From positions 1 to 64,000 of the forward strand of contig NZ_JZDQ02000004.1 of NCBI RefSeq assembly GCF_000960475.2: a stretch of DNA of 64,000 nucleotides, in the 5' to 3' direction. Within the stretch, counting starts at the first letter, position 1. Each line of letters starts with the position of its first letter. Made by a program: the position numbers and the translations under genes. This document shows, in pieces, positions 4,699 through 54,212 of this stretch. The stretch is from Nocardioides luteus (GTDB taxonomy: Bacteria > Actinomycetota > Actinomycetes > Propionibacteriales > Nocardioidaceae). The notes beneath the pieces were generated by a model. The model saw only the letters and a program-made list of their open reading frames with translations, was not told the DNA's origin and ran no database searches.

Positions 4699-5424
4699 GT
4701 GCCGCGTCTGGTGACAGAGGAGAGCCCGCAGATGCCCAACCGTCGATCCGGTGATCCCCGCCTGCAACATGGCCGGGGATCGCGGCAGCGACCGCAGGGC
4801 TCGGCCGACCGCAACCAGCCCGCGCTCGGCAAGCTGCTGAGCATCCTGCGGCTCGTCTACGCGCCGGTGATGCTGTGGGCGGTGGTGATCGCGAAGGACG
4901 ACACGATCGCGCTGGCCGCGTTCGGTCTCGCGGTCGTCACCGACCTGCTCGACAGCTGGCTCAACCGCAAGCAGCTCGGCCGTCGCCGCGCGGGGGAGCT
5001 GCTCGACGTGGCGGCCAACACCGCCTTCGTCCTGGCGGGCACGTTCGCGCTCTGGCAGATCGACGTGATTCCGTGGCCGATCGCGCTGCTGGTGCCGCTG
5101 CGACTCGCCGGCCTGCTGGCGATGATCCCGGCGCTGCGCAGCCGCGGGGTGCGTACGCTGCCGGTCCATCTGCTCGGCAAGGTGGGCGCCTTCTTCATGC
5201 TGGCCTCCTTCCCGCTGCTCCACCTCAGCCACGACATCCCCGAGACGCTCGACCTCGGCCTGGAGCCGAGCCTCCCGATCCAGCTGGCGCAGGCGTTCGG
5301 CTGGGCGTTCGCGCTGTGGGGGATCCTGCTGCTGTGGTGGAGCCTGGTGCTCTATGCCCAGGAGCTGCGTCGCCTCATGGCCACCACGCCGCCGCTGGAG
5401 AAGGGCGGAGCGGCCCGTGCCTGA
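4699..5424 (+). CDS. PgsA2-like CDP-alcohol phosphatidyltransferase homologue with degenerate active site
   Basis: 241 residues from GTG 4699, which has TAGGGT six nt upstream (leaderless pattern); an ATG at 4732 behind GAGGAG is an alternative giving 230 residues. Several membrane helices. It resembles mycobacterial PgsA2 (Rv1822) in sequence (LPVHLLGKVGAF, GWAFALWG) and in position ahead of the DUF881 genes. The family signature DxxDGxxAR...GxxxDxxxD is altered to DLLDSWLNR...GELLDVAAN: Gly to Ser, Ala to Asn and the last Asp to Asn. Because the final Asp is catalytic in the family, ordinary transferase activity is doubtful. It overlaps the next gene by 8 nt. Confidence 0.75.
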   Translation: MPRLVTEESPQMPNRRSGDPRLQHGRGSRQRPQGSADRNQPALGKLLSILRLVYAPVMLWAVVIAKDDTIALAAFGLAVVTDLLDSWLNRKQLGRRRAGELLDVAANTAFVLAGTFALWQIDVIPWPIALLVPLRLAGLLAMIPALRSRGVRTLPVHLLGKVGAFFMLASFPLLHLSHDIPETLDLGLEPSLPIQLAQAFGWAFALWGILLLWWSLVLYAQELRRLMATTPPLEKGGAARA

Positions 5425-6337
5425 CCAGATCCCCGGCTCCGAGGACCTGCGCGCCTACGTCACCAAGCCACTGCTCGACCGCATCACCGACCAGGCGATC
5501 GACTCCGACTACAAGGCCGCCGCCGCGCGCCGCGAGCCCTCGGAGGAGGAGTCGAACCGACGCCGCCGGCCGGGCCTGCGGGCGATGGTGATCGTGGGAC
5601 TCTTCGCCCTGCTCGCCACGACCGCCGCGGTGCAGACCTCGCGCACCGAGGACATCCGCCAGACCAGCAGGCAGGTCCTGGTCGACCGCATCGAGCAGCG
5701 CCAGGCCCGGATCGCCGACCTGCACCGCCAGATCTCCGCGCTCCGGGAGGACAACCAGCGCAGCGAGGCGTCGCTGAACTCGCTCAACCTCCGGGCCAAG
5801 TCGGCGTCCTCGACCGCCGCCTCGACCGCGGAGGAGACCGGGTTCGCCCCGGTCACCGGCTCGGGGATCAGGATCACGATCGACAACGCCGCCGACGGGA
5901 ACGAGGGCGGCACGGTCCGCGACTACGATCTCGCCGTGATCGTCAACGGCCTGTGGGAGGCGGGTGCCACCGCCGTGTCCGTCGACGGCCAGCGGGTCAC
6001 CCCGCGCAGCGGCGTGATCACCTCCGGCTCCACGCTCCGGATGAACGACGTCTCGCTCTCGCCGCCCTATGAGGTCTCGGCCATCGGCGACCGGCGTACG
6101 CTGGCCGCACGCTTCGCCGAGACGGTCTCGGGCGCGATGATCCGCACCACGACGCAGGACTACGGGATGCCGTTCGAGATCGAGAACATCGACCGGCTGA
6201 CGCTTCCCGCGGCACCACCTGATCTGCTGGAGTTGACCCAGCTCGGGACCAAGTCCGACGACAAGGGCTCCGCGAAGCCCACCGACAGAACCGACGAAGA
6301 CAAGCAAGAGAACAGCGAAGGGGACCGCGAAGAATGA
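5417..6337 (+). CDS. DUF881 membrane protein (first copy)
   Basis: 306 residues from GTG 5417, with GGAG six nt upstream, overlapping the previous stop. A cytoplasmic N-terminus of about 55 residues precedes one membrane helix (about 57-75), then an extracytoplasmic coiled coil (RIEQRQARIADLHRQISAL) and the DUF881 domain. It corresponds to Rv1823 in the mycobacterial block; Bacillus carries related YlxW/YlxX beside the division genes. The C-terminal tail is charged and repetitive. A role in envelope growth or division is inferred from context only. Confidence 0.85.
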   Translation: MPDQIPGSEDLRAYVTKPLLDRITDQAIDSDYKAAAARREPSEEESNRRRRPGLRAMVIVGLFALLATTAAVQTSRTEDIRQTSRQVLVDRIEQRQARIADLHRQISALREDNQRSEASLNSLNLRAKSASSTAASTAEETGFAPVTGSGIRITIDNAADGNEGGTVRDYDLAVIVNGLWEAGATAVSVDGQRVTPRSGVITSGSTLRMNDVSLSPPYEVSAIGDRRTLAARFAETVSGAMIRTTTQDYGMPFEIENIDRLTLPAAPPDLLELTQLGTKSDDKGSAKPTDRTDEDKQENSEGDREE

Positions 6338-6666
6338 TCGCCGTCATCGGCCTAGTGATCGGCATCGTGCTGGGACTGTTCTTCCAGCCCGAGGTGCCCG
6401 TCGGTCTGGCGCCTTACCTGCCGATCGCCGTCGTCGCCGCGCTCGACGCCGTCTTCGGTGCACTGCGCGCGTTCATGGACGGCATCTTCGACGACAAGGT
6501 CTTCGTCGTCTCGTTCATCAGCAACGTCGTCATCGCCGCCGGCATCGTCTACCTCGGTGACCGTCTCGGCGTCGGCGGCCAGCTGTCCACGGGCGTGATC
6601 GTCGTCCTCGGTATCCGCATCTTCACCAACGTCGCAGCCATCCGGAGGCACATCTTCCATGCCTGA
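6334..6666 (+). CDS. sbp: Small basic protein (DUF1290)
   Basis: 110 residues from ATG 6334, which overlaps the previous stop as ATGA, so translation is probably coupled. Three hydrophobic segments cover most of the protein, with the family block AALDAVFGALRA in the first half. The same gene sits between two DUF881 genes in mycobacteria (Rv1824) and beside the division cluster of Bacillus, so it is likely part of a DUF881-Sbp membrane assembly. The biochemical role is unknown. Confidence 0.88.
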   Translation: MIAVIGLVIGIVLGLFFQPEVPVGLAPYLPIAVVAALDAVFGALRAFMDGIFDDKVFVVSFISNVVIAAGIVYLGDRLGVGGQLSTGVIVVLGIRIFTNVAAIRRHIFHA

Positions 6667-8008
6667 CCGGAAGAGGAGGCCGCCGGTGAAGCGCACCGCG
6701 GCCAAGCGGACCCCGGCGAAGAAGGCACCGGCCGCGAAGCCCGCCGAGCCCGTGGAGGAGACCGTCAGCGAGACGGTGGACGAGACTGTTGCCGACGACG
6801 GCGTCACCCCCGAGGCCGGGGACGAAGGTACGCCGGCCGCCGAGCAGGCATCGACGGGCGATTCTGCTGAGGCGCCCGAGACCGACGAGCCTGCCGAGGC
6901 GCCCGAGACCGAAGAGTCGTCGGTCGCGGACGAGGCCGATGAGGCCGGGTCCGTCGAGCCTGATGAGGCTGCTGCAGGCGATGCCGCCGAGTCCGAGAAG
7001 GCGCCCGAGGAGCCGAGCGACGCCGAGGTGGCGGAGGACGGAGCCCTCGGGTCGACGGACGAGACGGACGGCGTCGAAGAGGCCGACGAAGAGGCCGACG
7101 ACGAGCCGTCCGGGACCGCTGAGGCCGACGAGCCCGCTGAGCCCGCTGAGCCCGCTGAGGCCGACGAGCCGGCCGAGAGCGACGAGCCCGCTGCGGCACA
7201 GGACGCGCCTGAGACCGACGAGGTCGAGGATGAGCCTGACGAGCCCGAGAAGCCCGAAGAGGTCGACCAGGCCGCCGAGCCCGAGGAGGAGCCGGCGCCG
7301 CTGGTCGGCCGGGCACGCCTCTTCGACGCGCTGACCCACTTCCGGCGCGGCCAGGCGGCCGTGGCGGTCCTGCTCTGCGTACTCGGCTATGCGGCCGTGG
7401 TGCAGGTCCAGACGAACACCGAGGACTCGACGTACGCCGGTCTGCGTGAGCAGGAGCTGATCGACATCCTCTCCGGCCTGGCCGGTACGACGCAGAAGGC
7501 CCAGGAGCAGATCGAGGAGCTCGAGAGCACCCGCGACGAGCTCGAGGACCAGACCCTCCAGCAGCAGACCGCGCTGCAGCGCGCCGAGGAGCAGGTCGAC
7601 ACGCTCCGGGTGATCGCCGGGACGGTGCCGGTCAGCGGGCCGGGGGTCACGATCGAGATCGACCCCGGCCCCGACCCGCTGCGGCTGACCGCTCTGCTCG
7701 ACCTGATCGAGGAGCTGCGCACCAGCGGCGCCGAGGCGATGGAGATCGAGGGGGCCGACGGAGAGGCCGTACGCCTGGTCGCGTCGTCCGCGATCGAGGT
7801 CAGCCAGCCCGCTCCCGGACTCAACGTCGGCGGCGAGCTGATCAGCCCGCCCTACCGCCTCAAGGTGATCGGTCCGCCCGACACGCTGGCCGGTGCGATC
7901 GACTTCTACCAGGGCCCGCAGGACCAGCTCGAGCAGCAGGGCGCGGAGGTCAAGGTGGAGTCGGAGGAGAAGATCGACATCGAGTCGATTCACACCGTGT
8001 CCCGCTGA
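6659..8008 (+). CDS. DUF881 membrane protein with a long acidic N-terminal tail
   Basis: 449 residues from ATG 6659, with GGAGG ten nt upstream and an 8-nt overlap with sbp. Residues 1-28 are basic (KRTAAKRTPAKKAP). Residues about 29-215 are a low-complexity Glu/Asp/Ala/Pro tail with repeats such as AEPAEPAEPAEADEPAESDE. A membrane helix follows (about 231-250), then a coiled coil (EQIEELESTRDELEDQTLQQ) and DUF881. The Rv1825 homologue. The acidic cytoplasmic tail is longer than the rest of its cytoplasmic part and may bind basic partners or nucleoid proteins; that is inference. Confidence 0.85.
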   Translation: MPDRKRRPPVKRTAAKRTPAKKAPAAKPAEPVEETVSETVDETVADDGVTPEAGDEGTPAAEQASTGDSAEAPETDEPAEAPETEESSVADEADEAGSVEPDEAAAGDAAESEKAPEEPSDAEVAEDGALGSTDETDGVEEADEEADDEPSGTAEADEPAEPAEPAEADEPAESDEPAAAQDAPETDEVEDEPDEPEKPEEVDQAAEPEEEPAPLVGRARLFDALTHFRRGQAAVAVLLCVLGYAAVVQVQTNTEDSTYAGLREQELIDILSGLAGTTQKAQEQIEELESTRDELEDQTLQQQTALQRAEEQVDTLRVIAGTVPVSGPGVTIEIDPGPDPLRLTALLDLIEELRTSGAEAMEIEGADGEAVRLVASSAIEVSQPAPGLNVGGELISPPYRLKVIGPPDTLAGAIDFYQGPQDQLEQQGAEVKVESEEKIDIESIHTVSR

Positions 8009-46218: not shown

Positions 46219-46240
46219 GTAAGCATGATTACATGCTTAC
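46219..46240. promoter_or_regulatory. Operator overlapping a start codon
   Basis: GTAAGCATG (46219-46227), 4-nt spacer, CATGCTTAC (46232-46240). The right arm contains the ATG start of the next gene, and the left arm takes the place of its -10 region. Confidence 0.6.
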
Positions 46241-46754
46241 AAACGAGTTGCGCGGGTGGTTCAGTGGACGGCTGCCCGATGGTGTGTACGACGAGATCGT
46301 CGATGTGGTGGTCGACCGCGAGGAGATCACCGTCGTCGGGCGGATCAAGGAGCCGAAGACCGCCGAGGGCGCTTCGGACGAAGAGCGAGCAGCAGCCAAC
46401 GAGGGACGGGCGAGCGAGTTCCGCGAGCGCACCCGCGAGGACCGGATGGCCGTGGCGCGGCAGGCGGAGCGCCGGTTCGACCGGAAGGTGTCGTGGGGCG
46501 TGGAGGTCGGGGGAGAGCGCCACATGTTCACCACCGTCTCCGCGCCGGTCATGACCCGGCTGCGTCAGCCCGAGCGCAAGGTCCTCGACCTGCTGGTCTC
46601 CGGCGGTGTCGCCCGGAGCAGGAGCGACGCGCTCGGCTGGTGCGTCAAGCTCGTCCAGCAGCACTCGAGCGAGTGGCTCGACGAGCTCCAGGAGTCGCTG
46701 GTCAACGTCGAGCGCGTGCGTGCCAAGGGGCCTGGCGGATCGGCTGCGTCCTAG
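46233..46754 (+). CDS. Uncharacterised protein, possible autoregulator
   Basis: 173 residues from ATG 46233; no Shine-Dalgarno is visible. The first 50 residues look beta-rich (GVYDEIVDVVVDREEITVVG), the middle is a charged helix (DEERAAANEGRASEFRERTR), and the C-terminal third, PVMTRLRQPERKVLDLLVSG followed by RSRSDALGWCVKL, is reminiscent of a ribbon-helix-helix domain. I do not recognise a named family. A 9-bp-arm inverted repeat spans its own start codon, so DNA binding and self-repression are plausible. Confidence 0.7.
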   Translation: MLTNELRGWFSGRLPDGVYDEIVDVVVDREEITVVGRIKEPKTAEGASDEERAAANEGRASEFRERTREDRMAVARQAERRFDRKVSWGVEVGGERHMFTTVSAPVMTRLRQPERKVLDLLVSGGVARSRSDALGWCVKLVQQHSSEWLDELQESLVNVERVRAKGPGGSAAS

Positions 46755-47779
46755 CAGGTGGCGTCAGGGGAGTGGTTGGGGCCGGCCGGTCGGCCGGAGG
46801 CGCGCTCCCGGAGGGCCTCGATGATGGCCGGGCAGATGTCGGTCTCGTAGAGCCACTCGATGCTCTGGATACCGCCCGGGCTGTCGGCATTGATCTCGAG
46901 CACCTTGTGGCCGACCACGTCGATCCCGACGAAGAACAACCCGTCGGCCGCGAGCTTGGGACCCATCGTGTCGACGATGTCCTTCTCGCGTGCGCCGATC
47001 TCGAGCGGCTTCATCCGCCCGCCCTTGCTGATGTTGGCGCGCGGGTCGTTGCCGTCGGGCACGCGCCGGAACGCGGCGTACGCCCCGTCGATCTCGATCA
47101 GCTTCCCGTCGAGCAGAAAGATTCTGGCATCGCCCTCCTCGCCGCCGTCCACGAACTCCTGGGCGATCGCATATCCGTCCTCGAAGACCGCCTCGATGAT
47201 CTGCGCCAGGTTGGTCTCGTTCTCGTCCTCGACGACGAACACGTTGCGGCCCTTGCCGCCGTAGATCGGCTTGACGACGGACTTGCCCACCTCTGCGACG
47301 AACCGTCTGATCGCTCCGGCGTCGCGGGTGACGAGGGAGCGTGGCCGGACAGACTGGGGAAACTCCTCCAGATAGAGCTTGCTCGTCGCACGGCTCAACG
47401 TCACCGGGTCATTGACCACCGTGACACCTCGAGCGGCGAGCATCTGGCCGAAGACGGTGCCGAGCGGGCCGGCCCATGGTCGCTCCTGCATCTCGGTGGC
47501 CTCTTCGTTGCGCAGGAACAGGGCGTCCAGCGAATCCATCACCAGTCGCTCCGCATCACGTTTCTTGATCCGGGCCAGGAACGTCTCCAGCGTGTCGCCC
47601 TCGATGACCTCGGCGCGGCGCGCGCGGGCGAGGAGCTGTTGACTCGTGTCGAACTCGACATCGCCTGCACCGACGTACCAGACCTCGTGCGACCCCTCGA
47701 CGGCCGCCTTGGCAAGTCGCGTGGTCGCCATCTCGGGGTGTTCGACTGCGATCTCGTTGACGAAGAACGCAAGCTTCAT
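46751..47779 (-). CDS. ATP-grasp ligase (glutathione-synthetase/RimK-like)
   Basis: 342 residues from ATG 47779, with GGAGAGGGAG just upstream, overlapping the DUF1704 stop as ATGA. N-terminal pre-ATP-grasp domain with MKLAFFVNEIAVEHPEM; ATP-grasp core with SVVKPIYGGKGRNVFVV, EFVDGGEEGDARIFL and the metal-binding LEINADSPGGIQSIEW. It should join an amino group to a carboxylate on a small molecule, peptide or protein terminus. The 3' end overlaps the convergent gene at 46233 by 4 nt. Confidence 0.87.
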   Translation of the reverse strand: MKLAFFVNEIAVEHPEMATTRLAKAAVEGSHEVWYVGAGDVEFDTSQQLLARARRAEVIEGDTLETFLARIKKRDAERLVMDSLDALFLRNEEATEMQERPWAGPLGTVFGQMLAARGVTVVNDPVTLSRATSKLYLEEFPQSVRPRSLVTRDAGAIRRFVAEVGKSVVKPIYGGKGRNVFVVEDENETNLAQIIEAVFEDGYAIAQEFVDGGEEGDARIFLLDGKLIEIDGAYAAFRRVPDGNDPRANISKGGRMKPLEIGAREKDIVDTMGPKLAADGLFFVGIDVVGHKVLEINADSPGGIQSIEWLYETDICPAIIEALRERASGRPAGPNHSPDATC

Positions 47780-48957
47780 CTCTCTCCCTCTCCTTCGTAG
47801 AGGTCTGTGACCTGCAAGCCGCCGGCCATCCGGTCGAGGCGCTCGCGCGCGCCGGACACCTCGAGCCACCGCGGGCGCACCCACGGAGGCTCGAGCACGC
47901 CGCGCTCGAGGAGGTCCTGCACCAGGTCGATGTGGTCCAGCGCGAGCTTGCCGACCAGCAGCACGTCGAGATCGACTCCCGAGGCAACGGCCTCGAGGAT
48001 GCGGCTGATCCCGCGCAGGTAGATCGCGTCGCGCACCATCCCGCCGGCGACGACCACACGGATCGCGACCGACCAGGCGGTCCGGCGGGGGAGCCGGTGC
48101 TTGCCCTCCAAGGTCTCGAAGATCTCCATGAAACCTCCGCCCGCGAGCATCAGGTCGACGGCGACGACCCGCGCCGCCAGCACCCGCAGCCGCCGTGGGT
48201 CCAGCCCGCCGGTGACGTACTCGGAGATGAGCGCCAGGCCCTCTTGGGTCTCGTCGTAGCCGGGCAGGCCGATCGTCAGCATCTTCAGCGGCTGCCGCGC
48301 GCCGTTCTGGTAGGTGACGACGTGCGTACCGACCTCGTGGTGAAGCAGCGGCTCGACCCGGTCGGCGCGGAAGGTCGCCGACGCAGGGATGAGCAGCTGC
48401 CCCGCGGACACCATCAGCTCGGAGACGTCCTCACGCACCTCGACGTGCGCGGGAAACCCGGGGTACGCCGCTCGATAGTGCTCCATCTCGGCGCGGGCTG
48501 CATCAGCGAACGCCCCGGACGTCACGTTCCCGCGGGCCGGCGCCGGCGGCGGGATGTCGGCGAGCAGTTGCTCGGCCGACGACACGAGACCGGCGGAGGG
48601 GTCGCCGAAGAGCTGCCGTGACCCGTGCACGAACTTCGTCGTGTCACGGTCCTCGAGCGCGGTGATCTGTCGCGCGATCTCGTCTCGTTTGGCCCGGAAC
48701 AAGGAGTGCAGGGCTGGGTCGGCGACGTCCTCGATCTCGAGGTTGTAGAGATCACGACGCACCAGGTCAGGGTCGAAGTCGAGCTCTCGGAGCCGCAACG
48801 TCGGTGCGACCGTGAAGTCGGTCCGTTTGAAGTCGTCCCACGCCTCCGCTCCGTTGAGTGGGGTGAGGTTCAGCAGCGGGTCGATCTGGCGCTCGATCGC
48901 GGTGAGTCGGGCGTCGATGCTGAGGGCGGGCTCGCTCTCTTGGGTCGAAGCAGTCAC
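47776..48957 (-). CDS. DUF1704/QEGLA-motif metallopeptidase (MATCAP-like)
   Basis: 393 residues from GTG 48957. The HExxxH zinc motif is HEVGTH (207-212), followed by the diagnostic DETQEGLALISEYV (235-248). This family is annotated as flavohemoglobin expression-modulating QEGLA protein in bacteria; its eukaryotic relative MATCAP removes C-terminal tyrosine from tubulin. A metallocarboxypeptidase activity is therefore likely. The gene is coupled to the ATP-grasp ligase downstream, forming a ligase/peptidase pair. Confidence 0.87.
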   Translation of the reverse strand: MTASTQESEPALSIDARLTAIERQIDPLLNLTPLNGAEAWDDFKRTDFTVAPTLRLRELDFDPDLVRRDLYNLEIEDVADPALHSLFRAKRDEIARQITALEDRDTTKFVHGSRQLFGDPSAGLVSSAEQLLADIPPPAPARGNVTSGAFADAARAEMEHYRAAYPGFPAHVEVREDVSELMVSAGQLLIPASATFRADRVEPLLHHEVGTHVVTYQNGARQPLKMLTIGLPGYDETQEGLALISEYVTGGLDPRRLRVLAARVVAVDLMLAGGGFMEIFETLEGKHRLPRRTAWSVAIRVVVAGGMVRDAIYLRGISRILEAVASGVDLDVLLVGKLALDHIDLVQDLLERGVLEPPWVRPRWLEVSGARERLDRMAGGLQVTDLYEGEGER

Positions 48958-48994: not shown

Positions 48995-49501
48995 TCACCG
49001 CGTGCGCTCGGCGCGCTGCCGGACCAGCTCCTCGACCGGTGTCGGAAGGGTCGTCTCGAAGTCGATCAGCTTCGCCCAGGTCGGGGTGACGACGATGCGC
49101 ACCATGCTGTCGTACAGCGAACGCACCTCCGCCTCCCAGGCGACCCGTTGCTCCGGTGTCATCTCGTAGGAGCCGTTCATCTCGAGGTACTGCTCGGGGA
49201 TCCCGTCGACGAGGTCCAGCTCGGCGGTCCCGCGAATGAGCAGCATCTTCGGCGGGTGCGCCTCGGTGTCGATGGTCAGGGCGACCGCCGGGTTGTGCCG
49301 CAGCGCGATGAGCTTGGGGGAGTTGGGGGTGGTGCACATGACCACCTGCGAGCCGTTCCAGGTGAACGCGATCGGGATGTTCCTCGGCGTGCCGTCCTTG
49401 GCGACGTACGCCAGGCGGGTCAGGTCTCGCGCCAGGAGCTCGCGGCTCAGCGGACGGCTCAGGACCGCCTGGATCTCGTCGGCCTGCATGGTGTTCGACA
49501 T
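48995..49501 (-). CDS. Pyridoxamine 5'-phosphate oxidase-family protein
   Basis: 168 residues from ATG 49501, with GAGGAG six nt upstream. Split barrel with LTRLAYVAKDGTPRNIPIAF, SPKLIALRHNPAVALTID and a late MVRIVVTPTWAKLIDFE. A flavin- or F420-binding oxidoreductase of the FDOR/PPOX group; substrate unknown. Confidence 0.82.
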   Translation of the reverse strand: MSNTMQADEIQAVLSRPLSRELLARDLTRLAYVAKDGTPRNIPIAFTWNGSQVVMCTTPNSPKLIALRHNPAVALTIDTEAHPPKMLLIRGTAELDLVDGIPEQYLEMNGSYEMTPEQRVAWEAEVRSLYDSMVRIVVTPTWAKLIDFETTLPTPVEELVRQRAERTR

Positions 49502-49593
49502 CGGGTTCTCCTCGGTTCGGGCGACCCGGTCGGTCGCTCTCACCCCAGGGACGGAGCCGTTCCCATGTTCTCTACATCCTGGCGACGACGTCG

Positions 49594-50103
49594 TCAGTCG
49601 ACCGGCTTGCCGAAGGAGTACGTGCCCGCGACGGAGACGGTCGCCGAGGTGTCCGCATCGGTGACCGAGACGTTCGACCACGTCGACACCGTGTGCACCG
49701 ACGTCTGCCCGCTGGGGCAGTCGAGAACACTGCTCGCCGCGGGTGCGGTGACGGTCAGAGAGCCGGTGACGTTGCCGTTCCGGGCGGCCGTGAACTCGCC
49801 GGACTTCGAGTAGTCGCCGCTGATCACGGTCTTCTTCGGGTCATCCGGGTTGTGACCGCCGCGGTTGACGCACTGGTAGGTCGCCTCGAGGTGGGCGGTC
49901 ACGGTGATCGTCTCGACCGACCCGCTCTCGAGGCCGGCCTCCTTGAACGCGACGGTGATCGAGGTCAGGTCGGCGCTGGTGACCTTGGTCAGGTTGTTGA
50001 TGAAGTGCGGGCTGCCGCTCGCGAAGGCCGGTGCGGCGGCCAGGACCGCCGCGCCGGCGGTGGCTGCGATCGCGGTGAAGACGTTCTGGATGCGCATGCT
50101 CAT
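49594..50103 (-). CDS. Secreted hypothetical protein
   Basis: 169 residues from ATG 50103, with GGGGG three nt upstream (ATG 50097 is also possible). A Sec signal peptide (VFTAIAATAGAAVLAAAPAF, cleavage near FAS) is followed by a beta-rich domain with Thr/Ser/Val strands and two Cys (YQCVNRGGH, LDCPSGQ). Similar small secreted proteins occur in streptomycetes; function unknown. Confidence 0.7.
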   Translation of the reverse strand: MSMRIQNVFTAIAATAGAAVLAAAPAFASGSPHFINNLTKVTSADLTSITVAFKEAGLESGSVETITVTAHLEATYQCVNRGGHNPDDPKKTVISGDYSKSGEFTAARNGNVTGSLTVTAPAASSVLDCPSGQTSVHTVSTWSNVSVTDADTSATVSVAGTYSFGKPVD

Positions 50104-50390: not shown

Positions 50391-50768
50391 ATGTCCGGAC
50401 CTGCCGGCCCACCGCCTGCCGAGGTGGGTGGATCAGCTCGCCGAGTCCTGCGTACGGGCTGGGTCGCGTTCGCCCTTCTCCCGGTCGCGTTCGTGGGTGC
50501 TGCGATCCTGGGCGACTGGTTGCTCTCCGTTCAGGGCTACTCGAGCGGAGAGGGGGATCTGCCGACCGCGGTCGTCCTCAGGGCAGGACTTCCCGCGCTC
50601 TTGGTGCTGGTAGCGCCCTCGATCGCCGGCGCATGGTGTGGCCACCGGGCCGAGCGTCTCGGCCACCCGGGAGGTCGTGCGCTGTTCATCGTCGGAACCG
50701 TTGTCGCGGCAGCGTCGGTCGTGCTCAACCTCGTGCAGGTGATTGCTTCATGGGTGCTCGGTCTCTGA
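50391..50768 (+). CDS. Small membrane protein
   Basis: 125 residues from ATG 50391, with GGGGG ten nt upstream; a further in-frame ATG at 50352 would add 13 residues. Three hydrophobic segments (WVAFALLPVAFVGAAILGDW; ALLVLVAPSIAGAWCG; ALFIVGTVVAAASVVLNLVQ) follow a Pro/Gly-rich N-terminus. No named family recognised. The 3' end overlaps the convergent M20 gene by 21 nt. Confidence 0.6.
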   Translation: MSGPAGPPPAEVGGSARRVLRTGWVAFALLPVAFVGAAILGDWLLSVQGYSSGEGDLPTAVVLRAGLPALLVLVAPSIAGAWCGHRAERLGHPGGRALFIVGTVVAAASVVLNLVQVIASWVLGL

Positions 50769-51974
50769 CCCGTCACGGCTGCTGACGGTCAAGGCGTCGA
50801 GCGCGAGCAGCGCGAGCGCTGCCGCCTGGTCGCCGAGGACGCTGTCGTCGAAGGCGGCGTCAGGGGAGTGGTTGGGTGCGGCCTCGTCGGTCGGCGCGGC
50901 GCCCAGCAGGATCATGGCGGTCGGGACCTGCTGGCTGACGTACGAGAAGTCCTCGGCGCCCATCGTCGGCCGTGGCACCTCGACCACCCGCGGCCCGAAG
51001 GCATGACGGAGCGTCTCCAACGCCCGCAGGGCGGTCGCCTCGTCGTTGACCACGCTCGGGTAGCCGGTGTCGAGCGCGACCGTCGCGACCAGCCCGTGAG
51101 CCGCCGCGATGCCCTCGACGAGCCGAGGAAGCTCCTCCTCGATCCTGGACAGCGTGTTCGGATCGACCGTACGTACCGTGCCGGTGAGCTGTGCCGATCC
51201 AGGGATGACGTTGTCGGCTCCCGTGCCCGCGGTCAGGTTCGTCACCGAGATGACGACCGGGTCGAAGGAGTCGAACCGGCGCGCGGTGTAGCTCTGCAGC
51301 GCCAGCACGATCTCTGCCGCGATCGGCACCGGGTCGAGAGTCTCGTGGGGACGTGATCCGTGCCCACCGTGGCCTTCGAGGTCGATCGTCAGGTGCGTCG
51401 AGCTCGCGGTCACCGTGCCCGGGCGGGTGAGGAAGATCCCGCGCGGCGCGTTGCCGACATGGATCGCGTACGCCGCGACCGGCCGGCCGCCGGCAGCGTC
51501 GAGGACACCTTCGTCGATCATCAGCCGGGCGCCGCCGTGCCCCTCCTCGCCCGGCTGGAACATCAGGATGACGTTCCCGGCCAGTTCGGAGCGGTGCTCG
51601 GCGAGCAGCCTGGCCGCGCCGACCAGCCCGGCCACATGCAGGTCGTGACCGCAGGCATGCATGGCGCCGTTGGTCGAGCGGTAGGGAACCTCCACCGCCT
51701 CGGTGATCGGGAGGGCATCCATGTCGGCGCGGAGGAGGACGGTCGGCCCGGGCTTCTCGCCGCGCAGAACGGCGGTCACCGACGACAGCGACCGTCCTTC
51801 GGAGATCTCGAGGTCGAGGCCCGAGAGTGCCTCGAGCACCCGGCGCTGCGTCGCGGGCAGATGGAGCCCGAGCTCGGGCTCGGCGTGGATGCTCCGCCGG
51901 AGCTCGACCAGGTCGGGTGCGAGAGCCTCGGCAGAGGCGATGATCTGGGCCTCGAGAGCATTGCTGGACACCAT
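50748..51974 (-). CDS. M20-family amidohydrolase
   Basis: 408 residues from ATG 51974. M20D group: LLRADMDALPI, MHACGHDLHVAGL (metal-binding Cys/His), MFQPGEEGHGGA and a late PTMGAEDFSYV. It hydrolyses N-acyl or N-carbamoyl amino acids such as hippurate or N-acetylated compounds in the cytoplasm. TAATTT lies six nt before the ATG, consistent with a leaderless mRNA. Confidence 0.92.
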   Translation of the reverse strand: MVSSNALEAQIIASAEALAPDLVELRRSIHAEPELGLHLPATQRRVLEALSGLDLEISEGRSLSSVTAVLRGEKPGPTVLLRADMDALPITEAVEVPYRSTNGAMHACGHDLHVAGLVGAARLLAEHRSELAGNVILMFQPGEEGHGGARLMIDEGVLDAAGGRPVAAYAIHVGNAPRGIFLTRPGTVTASSTHLTIDLEGHGGHGSRPHETLDPVPIAAEIVLALQSYTARRFDSFDPVVISVTNLTAGTGADNVIPGSAQLTGTVRTVDPNTLSRIEEELPRLVEGIAAAHGLVATVALDTGYPSVVNDEATALRALETLRHAFGPRVVEVPRPTMGAEDFSYVSQQVPTAMILLGAAPTDEAAPNHSPDAAFDDSVLGDQAAALALLALDALTVSSRDGSETEHP

Positions 51975-52850: not shown

Positions 52851-54212
52851 CTAGGGCGTGATGTTCTGGTTGTGGCGGAACAGGTTCTCCGGGTCGTAGG
52901 TCTGCTTGATCTTCTTGAGGCGGGCGTAGTTGCTGCCGTAGGTGTCGGTGACGCGGCCCTGGTCGTCCTCGGACATGAAGTTCACGTAGCCGCCAGGCTC
53001 GGAGTGCGGCGTGAGTGCGGCGGCGTAGTCGCGAACCCACGCGATGTGGGCAGCGTCGTCGGAGGCGTCCGGCCAGGCCGAGACGATGACCGTCGAGAAG
53101 GTCGCGTGGCGGTAGGAGAACGCGGTGTCCGTCGCGCCGACGCGGGAGGCGGCACCGTTGATCGGGTAGAGGTGCATCGTCGAGCTCGCGTTCGGTGCCT
53201 TGGGGCCGTGGGCCAGGTGCGCCTCGATCGCCTCATCGGTCAGCTCGGTGACGTAGTTGCCCTTCCAGTAGCTGCGTACGCCACGGGGGAACAGGTCGTC
53301 GAACGCGCTGTTGAGCCACGGGTACGGCATCGGCGCGACCATCTCGCCGACGCGCGGCGCAAGGTCGCGGAACGGCTGCATCACCGCCTCGCCCTCCTCG
53401 GCCGGACCGCTCCAGTGGACGACGGCGACGCAGAAGGTGTCGCCGTGGCGCTCCTCCGGGACGAAGGGCAGGGGAGGGGCGATCTGGAACGCAGGGAAAC
53501 CCCCGCAGCGCTCGTCGGCGTCGGTCACCCACGTGCGGAAGAAGCGCAGCAGGTCCCCGGCGTGCTCGAGCTCGTAGAAGAAGAGTCCGACGACGACCTC
53601 GTCCACCGGGTGCAGGTCGAACTCGAAGCTGGTGACGACCCCGAAGTTGCCGCTGCCACCGCGCAGCGCCCAGAACAGGTCGGGGTTCTCGGACTCGCTG
53701 GCGCGCCGGAGCTGCCCGTCGGCGGTGACGACGTCGGCCGATCGGAGGTTGTCGATCGTGAGACCGAACCCACGCGTGAGGTAGCCGATACCGCCGCCGA
53801 GTGTCAGGCCACCGACACCGGTCGTCGACACGATCCCGCCGGGCGTGGCGAGGCCGTGCGCATGGGTCGCTTCGTTGAGATCGGCCAGCGTCGCGCCGCC
53901 ACCCACGCGAGCGGTCCGAGCGGCGGCGTCGACCTCGACGGACCGCATGGGGGACAGGTCGATGACCAGACCGTCATCGATCGTTCCGTAACCCGGCGCG
54001 CTGTGTCCGCCTCCGCGCACGGCCAGCAGAAGGCCGGCGTCGCGGGCGAAGTTCACCGCGGCGATGACGTCGTCGGCGTTCTCGGCCGGCACGACAGCCG
54101 CGGGGCGCCGGTCGATCATGCCGTTCCAGACGCCTCGAGCGTCGTCGTAGTCGGAGTCGTCGGGCGTGATGACCCGGGTGACCTGTTTGCGAAGTTCGTT
54201 GATGGATGTCAT
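52851..54212 (-). CDS. BBE-type FAD-linked oxidoreductase
   Basis: 453 residues from ATG 54212. PCMH-type FAD-binding domain with the histidine for covalent flavin in VRGGGHSAPGYG and TTGVGGLTLGGGIGYLTRGF; no Cys at the second attachment site, so a single covalent link is expected. The C-terminal berberine-bridge-like end is YDPENLFRHNQNI. It oxidises an alcohol or sugar with O2. No signal peptide. Confidence 0.9.
   Translation of the reverse strand: MTSINELRKQVTRVITPDDSDYDDARGVWNGMIDRRPAAVVPAENADDVIAAVNFARDAGLLLAVRGGGHSAPGYGTIDDGLVIDLSPMRSVEVDAAARTARVGGGATLADLNEATHAHGLATPGGIVSTTGVGGLTLGGGIGYLTRGFGLTIDNLRSADVVTADGQLRRASESENPDLFWALRGGSGNFGVVTSFEFDLHPVDEVVVGLFFYELEHAGDLLRFFRTWVTDADERCGGFPAFQIAPPLPFVPEERHGDTFCVAVVHWSGPAEEGEAVMQPFRDLAPRVGEMVAPMPYPWLNSAFDDLFPRGVRSYWKGNYVTELTDEAIEAHLAHGPKAPNASSTMHLYPINGAASRVGATDTAFSYRHATFSTVIVSAWPDASDDAAHIAWVRDYAAALTPHSEPGGYVNFMSEDDQGRVTDTYGSNYARLKKIKQTYDPENLFRHNQNITP

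Follow-up and report, generated by a model that had tools for sequence, protein, structure and literature searches.

The closest described relatives of the proteins considered here belong to rather different settings. MATCAP/TMCP1 (KIAA0895L) and TMCP2 are tubulin carboxypeptidases of Pfam family PF08014, and TTL belongs to the ATP-grasp superfamily, which also includes GshB, acting on gamma-Glu-Cys, and RimK, acting on Glu and extending the tail of ribosomal protein S6. N-formylglutamate amidohydrolases (FGases) are known from histidine catabolism, and are considered to share their fold with the CCP-type M14 peptidases. The window analysed herein, comprising the first 64,000 nt of contig NZ_JZDQ02000004.1 of Nocardioides luteus (assembly GCF_000960475.2), harbours on its minus strand a DUF1704/MATCAP-family gene that overlaps an ATP-grasp ligase gene by 4 nt, an ATGA overlap that suggests translational coupling of the two. 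The coupling of ligase and DUF1704 is real and old, and sequence comparison indicates that the pair in the window is a reduced, two-gene form of a three-enzyme module consisting of FGase, DUF1704 protein and ATP-grasp ligase. No paper on a ligase–DUF1704 pair was found in our searches of the open-licence PMC literature; a 2009 amidoligase survey by Iyer and colleagues may mention related neighbourhoods.

PF08014 is uncommon, being found in 13 of 296 genomes of an Actinomycetota phylum sample and in 22 of 198 genomes sampled from the family to which the window belongs. A ligase lies directly beside DUF1704 in 26 of the 34 loci from these two samples (6 of 13 in the phylum sample alone), and the other eight (L002–L005, L007, L012, L013 and L034 in our numbering of loci) carry distant DUF1704s with no ligase in the available stretch, which for L007 runs to a contig end. 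When the 198 family genomes were searched reciprocally with NF009110, scores above 300 bits were returned for 21, with the next at 214.7; these are exactly the 21 genomes that possess a window-type DUF1704, at neighbouring coordinates, and the 22nd PF08014 genome contains a remote member (75.7 bits). Amongst the 198 family genomes, therefore, ligase and DUF1704 of the window type never separate. Conservation in other genomes was the key test set by the earlier note on this DNA, and the pair is indeed retained, both in these 21 genomes and in 97 of the 99 rows of the clade described below.

The linkage extends well beyond this family. Named genomes were scanned with an alignment of eleven DUF1704s, and within the best 80 of 566 confirmed candidate loci, where Pontibacter, Kribbella and Agromyces are over-represented, 79 have a ligase homologue, the exception (L120) ending 71 nt past the match. 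Hosts of these loci include Nocardioides, Kribbella, Agromyces, Terrabacter, Actinoplanes, Cellulomonas, Intrasporangium, Mycolicibacterium, Pontibacter and Sphingobacterium, as well as many metagenome-assembled genomes (MAGs) of Planctomycetota and MAGs titled Gemmatimonadota, Acidobacteria, Myxococcota, Anaerolineae, Campylobacterales and others. Two further phylum samples yielded PF08014 in 12 of 198 Bacteroidota genomes (12 loci, 10 with a visible ligase) and 28 of 147 Planctomycetota genomes (30 loci, 9 with a visible ligase); most loci from such whole-genome searches cover 1.5 kb per side, and the absence of a ligase refers to that stretch.

The arrangement itself also goes beyond chance. 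In 98 of 104 single-ligase loci (second copies of records removed, large genera unthinned) ligase and DUF1704 share a strand and the ligase start lies between −47 and +71 nt relative to the DUF1704 stop, with a spacing of exactly −4 nt in 57; the remainder are either farther apart (four) or on opposite strands (L092 and L133). Six loci contain two or three full-length ligases in tandem (L088, L089, L098, L104, L107 and L121), and four contain two DUF1704 genes (L093, L098, L111 and L129). Pairwise distances of ligase and DUF1704 across 65 loci correlate with an r of 0.77, a value reached by none of 2000 Mantel permutations, which shows joint descent rather than contact, with shared ancestry contributing.

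Clustering of open reading frames (ORFs) of at least 70 aa, within 6.5 kb on either side in the best 80 of 566 loci, reveals one further recurrent neighbour, present in 42 loci from 29 groups and directly upstream in 38 of these. This is an FGase (PF05013), the scanned examples of which pass the Pfam cut-off. Of two members compared with the HutG equivalog TIGR02017, one scores 22.5 bits against a cut-off of 278.75 and the other gives no match, such that the third gene of the module falls within the family of HutG (PDB 2q7s) but far below its equivalog. Residues H22, E45, E46, N73, R74, H136 and E222 are each conserved in at least 30 of 31 sequences, and the module FGase therefore looks like a working enzyme. 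Three rhizobial plasmids display the same gene order, with depositors' names of N-formylglutamate amidohydrolase, QEGLA motif protein and glutathione synthetase, and all three genes are present at a locus on pSymB of S. meliloti (tblastn). FGase and DUF1704 also exist as single proteins of 663 and 667 aa in L139 (Vibrio sp. HDW18; 5131–7122) and L187 (1450–3453), respectively. A larger arrangement occurs in L098 (2585–12386; a planctomycete MAG of the Phycisphaerae), in which a sigma-54-type regulator adjoins two DUF1704s, a single FGase and a tandem array of three ligases. A genome search found no FGase in the window genome, and none lies beside the pair.

DUF1704s that adjoin an FGase usually carry about 250 additional N-terminal residues, as exemplified by L098 (7227–7991), although 18 genomes of the genus to which the window belongs possess the FGase without this domain. 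When 41 members of the domain were scanned singly, three Pfam families were matched, by one member each, with a best E-value of 0.056, and a profile of the domain found no PDB sequence under an E-value of 0.35. Its AlphaFold model (pLDDT 87.9) is closest to the FGases 2q7s (Z 12.9, 180 residues, 3.6 Å) and 2odf (Z 11.0, 177 residues, 3.6 Å), followed by carboxypeptidases including CCP5 (Z 8.6, 182 residues, 4.2 Å); purine nucleoside phosphorylases score as high (Z 8.8), which makes the CCP5 match weak and leaves FGase as the one distinctive hit. Alignment with the module FGases using hhalign gave 93.2 % and an E-value of 2.9e-7 over 181 columns, placing FGase H136 opposite W110 of the domain, with H22 outside of the aligned part. 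The domain has no invariant histidine column, the best two being kept in 33 and 32 of 41 sequences. From these comparisons we infer that it is FGase-like and has lost the zinc site.

A DUF1704 tree (FastTree, midpoint root, 134 domain rows, in which compositional unevenness and long branches were noted) was derived from 155 rows by omitting 15 second-copy loci and thinning four genera to three rows each; it retains three pairs of identical sequences (L104/L167, L129/L182 and L130/L168). The window falls within one 99-row clade (SH 99) in which 97 rows have a ligase in the locus, including a few that are not adjacent (L092, L109, L129 and L133). The two exceptions are L120, at a contig end, and L182; in L129, a longer copy of the latter, a ligase follows 3 kb downstream. 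A nearby five-row clade of Vibrio and Bacteroidota-sample genomes has an FGase in all five rows, and a diverged ligase at the edge of the locus in three. The 30 rows of other clades have neither ligase nor FGase, mostly as judged within 1.5 kb per side. Some such clades (L002–L005, L155–L160, L162–L164 and L174–L181) also possess altered metal motifs, for example HEAYVH, HEGYVH and HEIQTH, with no ligase or FGase within 4 kb loci.

More narrowly, the window sits inside a 23-row actinobacterial sub-clade (SH 100) lacking both FGase and N-terminal domain, compared with the other 76 rows of the 99-row clade, where the FGase is present in 65 and the domain in 56. As L009 and L102, sister to this sub-clade, hold both, these were probably lost on its branch. 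Another version of the pair is present in 18 of the sampled Nocardioides genomes, with a DUF1704 only 38–43 % identical to that of the window, whilst versions from Kribbella, Agromyces and Actinoplanes are 70–73 % identical. That versions from other genera are closer than the second Nocardioides version speaks for lateral spread of the module.

The window peptidase, of the short form without the N-terminal domain and the only PF08014 member found in a search of its genome, scores 290.6 bits against PF08014 (E 2e-86; cut-off 27 bits). Against TIGR02421, the QEGLA equivalog, it reaches 297.8 bits, under the curated cut-off of 338.65, which a long-form relative in L098 exceeds (360.7 bits). H207, E208 and H212 are invariant in separate alignments of 18 and of 50 homologues, as are Q238, E239, G240 and A242 in the latter. 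HEVGTH aligns with HEIGTH of human KIAA0895L/MATCAP, and QEGLA with its EEGLA. Furthermore, a profile of 18 bacterial DUF1704s finds human MATCAP (PDB 7z5g) with an E-value of 6e-23, the HE(I/V)GTH, EGLA, R, KD..Y and GK positions being in register; a solo-clade DUF1704 (L155) used as query did not find it at an E-value of 0.1. On this evidence the window peptidase is a true relative of human MATCAP, from which it differs in being bacterial and about 390 aa long, in aligning mainly over the catalytic half, and in being co-encoded with a ligase.

The specificity of the human enzymes has been described in some detail. According to one study, TMCP1 acts about equally well in vitro whether the residue to be removed is Y, A, E or G, and in cells it takes off Y, F or A (PMC10499314). 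The same study reports that modification is abolished when the penultimate glutamate is changed to Asp or Gln, and likewise when a Gly further in is changed to Glu, and that TMCP2 prefers glutamate and alanine (PMC10499314).

With regard to the ligase, the Pfam domains GSH-S_ATP (PF02955, 1e-45), GSH-S_N (PF02951, 8e-7) and RimK (PF08443, 3e-13) are all over cut-off, whereas scores against the more specific models fall short: 328.9 bits for NF009110/PRK12458, a glutathione synthetase subfamily (curated cut-off 408, exceeded in L098 and in the 18 same-genus genomes with the other pair version), 184.7 for the glutathione synthase model TIGR01380 (299.05) and 64.7 for the RimK-family model TIGR00768 (143.4). 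The closest fold to its AlphaFold model (pLDDT 91.6) is E. coli GshB 1gsa (Z 34.0, 310 residues, 2.3 Å, 26 % identity), followed by RimK (Z 25.4–26.0) and LysX/ArgX (Z about 20–25), with D-Ala ligases and synapsin lower; the peptide-binding or peptide-modifying ATP-grasps PsnB, MdnC and AMdnB are also amongst the matches. The ATP-grasp residues of GshB are aligned in the window protein, but its SPTCIRE stretch is replaced by SPGGIQS (SPGGLGS in the family consensus). The ligase is of the GshB/RimK type, sharing with GshB both fold and ATP-grasp residues, yet differing in its sub-cut-off score, in the changed stretch and in its linkage to DUF1704; RimK, an ATP-grasp ligase as are LysX and ArgX, is matched less well than GshB in structure. 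The earlier note had described overlapping ATP-grasp and HEVGTH/QEGLA genes built from the folds of the tubulin tyrosination cycle. Both genes and the 4-nt overlap are present as described, and the peptidase half of the comparison stands, but the ligase half is not supported: no TTL family appears amongst the five matches of the Pfam scan at an E-value of 0.01, and TTL is absent from the 50 fold matches listed.

Taken together, the specificity of TMCP1 and TMCP2, the relation of the ligase to GshB and RimK, and the family of the FGase point indirectly to a glutamyl compound. We give an even chance to the proposal that a small glutamyl peptide or conjugate is the common object of the module, which would make, trim and recycle it by forming and cleaving glutamyl–amino-acid bonds. 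The ligase would activate a carboxylate as an acyl phosphate and join it to an amino acid; the DUF1704 enzyme would hydrolyse this type of bond from the C-terminal end, where glutamate precedes the scissile bond; and the FGase, where present, would hydrolyse an N-acyl (formyl or other) glutamate, all three acting on one glutamyl compound. In the sub-clade containing the window only the ligation and C-terminal cleavage steps would be left. Two or three tandem ligases, as in six loci, fit sequential additions. The compound is more likely a small metabolite or peptide than a protein tail, and is possibly a stress or osmotic metabolite.

Two published datasets bear on the last suggestion; COG3930, a label used in one of them, corresponds to the DUF1704 family. 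A Photobacterium damselae dataset has two consecutively numbered tags, A0J47_RS17020 (GshB) and A0J47_RS17025 (QEGLA), up 38.4-fold and 27.5-fold, respectively, in 1 % NaCl (PMC10308900), and VV2_1203 (COG3930) and VV2_1204 (glutathione synthetase) of Vibrio vulnificus stand consecutively in a list of clade 2-specific genes (PMC3091676). With the genes matched by annotation, these data fit co-regulation and, weakly, an osmotic role.

Several observations weigh against a glutamyl-bond module. No known substrate or measured activity was found for any bacterial member, and the preference for glutamate comes from distant human enzymes that also require a residue further in. The form found in the window has no FGase, and the hydrolases can stand without a ligase, as the FGase–DUF1704 fusion of Vibrio sp. 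HDW18 has no ligase in 13 kb. PF08014 members without a linked ligase account for 7 of 13 loci in the Actinomycetota sample (L007 at a contig end) and for 21 of 30 in Planctomycetota (including L182, with a ligase 3 kb away in its L129 copy). RimK, the second-best fold of the ligase, acts on a protein tail. In the Photobacterium experiment cited above, RimK itself is up 52-fold, and many other genes change (PMC10308900).

It is fairly unlikely that the pair instead runs a reversible cycle on protein tails, with the ligase extending one or a few proteins by a residue, at the C-terminus or on a side chain, and the DUF1704 enzyme removing it. True MATCAP kinship, the second-place match of the ligase model to RimK, its further matches to peptide-modifying ATP-grasps such as PsnB and, weakly, the resemblance of the N-terminal domain to CCP5 count in favour of such a cycle; against this, the Z-score of the ligase model for GshB exceeds that for RimK by 8 units, a TTL kinship has no support, and the clustering of neighbours in the 80 loci yields no linked target protein (a target need not be linked), only the three enzymes holding a fixed position in many groups. 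Moreover, two or three tandem ligases per DUF1704 are unlike a one-to-one cycle, though four loci do have a second DUF1704. A still smaller chance attaches to the module being a forerunner of, or an invention parallel to, the tubulin-tail system, in which an ATP-grasp writer and two erasers, one of MATCAP type and one of FGase type with an M14/CCP-like fold, would act on a glutamate-containing C-terminus, with MATCAP later taken by eukaryotes.

Another explanation is that the ligase synthesises glutathione or a closely related thiol, with DUF1704 unrelated or accessory. That GshB of E. coli is the best solved structure, and that three rhizobial records are named glutathione synthetase, are in keeping with this; rhizobia make glutathione. 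The window genome has no PF04262 glutamate–cysteine ligase (GshA) but four PF04107 matches, so that a source of gamma-glutamylcysteine is possible, although the PF04107 family includes ergothioneine and other ligases. In 12 hand-chosen pair-bearing genomes, none of them rhizobial, no GshB exceeds the TIGR01380 cut-off and PF04262 is found in just one. This, the sub-cut-off scores, the changed SPTCIRE stretch and the absence, amongst the 198 family genomes, of any window-type ligase (over 300 bits with NF009110) without DUF1704 make glutathione synthesis by the window ligase unlikely; it is not the likeliest plain answer, and is kept as a rival of low probability.

Maturation of a ribosomal or non-ribosomal peptide, modified or extended by the ligase and trimmed by DUF1704, would accommodate the PsnB, MdnC and AMdnB fold matches and the tandem ligases of some loci. 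We nevertheless consider it improbable, as no short ORF (18–110 aa) is common to different genus labels in the 1.5 kb flanks of 30 sub-clade loci at an E-value of 1e-4, the sole sharing being between the window and L055, its 91 % identical sister. The pair could, lastly, serve scavenging or repair, hydrolysing damaged or formylated glutamyl peptides and re-ligating the products in catabolism rather than synthesis; two of the three enzymes are hydrolases, which can be fused with no ligase in view (L139), yet the window sub-clade lost the FGase and kept the ligase, the reverse of a purely catabolic expectation, leaving this a slender prospect. Phage carriage was rejected, the DUF1704 protein (P0002) being unmatched at an E-value of 1e-5 in 50,697 phage records.

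Positions of the pair and its features are collected in Table 1. A longer ligase ORF could begin from a GTG at 47884, but aligned ligase homologues start with the same M(K/R)(I/L), and the GTG start therefore looks like an over-extension, with the ATG at 47779 as the apparent start.

Table 1. Features of the ligase–DUF1704 pair, numbered from the first letter of the window
Feature	Coordinates	Strand	Remarks
DUF1704/MATCAP-family (QEGLA) predicted zinc carboxypeptidase gene	47776..48957	-	GTG start, 393 aa; first gene of the pair
HEVGTH (HExxxH), predicted zinc-binding and catalytic motif	48322..48339	-	DUF1704 residues 207-212
QEGLA motif	48232..48246	-	DUF1704 residues 238-242; E239 is the predicted third zinc ligand
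GshB-like ATP-grasp amide/peptide ligase gene	46751..47779	-	ATG start, 342 aa; second gene of the pair
GSH-S_ATP ATP-grasp catalytic domain	46853..47380	-	Ligase residues 134-309, Pfam
GSH-S_N pre-ATP-grasp domain	47399..47779	-	Ligase residues 1-127, Pfam
ATGA overlap of ligase and DUF1704 genes	47776..47779	-	4 nt, sequence

Tail to tail with the ligase gene, and overlapping it by 4 nt, is a homologue of the ATP-binding transcription factor AbmR (46233–46754, plus strand; 249.2 bits against an NCBIfam cut-off of 160). On the other side, a PPOX-class F420-type oxidoreductase gene (48995–49681, minus strand) has the orientation of DUF1704 and ends 37 nt upstream of it; it was rejected as a member of the unit, having a match in only 1 of 86 loci searched, that of the sister species (L055). 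Broader operon partners were likewise set aside, with a sigma-54 regulator in eight loci and a mechanosensitive-channel homologue in four, at varying positions; small neighbour clusters of three to four groups are only partly identified. Farther along the minus strand are an M20 amidohydrolase-family gene (50748–51974; TIGR01891 over cut-off) and an FAD-linked oxidase resembling BagK/FevA1, below cut-off (52851–54212).

Public names such as 'flavohemoglobin expression-modulating QEGLA motif protein' and 'glutathione synthetase' hide a conserved ligase–hydrolase unit. The pair is directly testable, consisting of enzymes of ordinary size encoded by adjacent genes, and soil actinobacteria including Kribbella and Agromyces have versions of it. 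A substrate, if found, would put right the annotation as glutathione synthetase, might bring a new glutamyl peptide or conjugate to light, and would suggest a pre-tubulin role for MATCAP-type peptidases.

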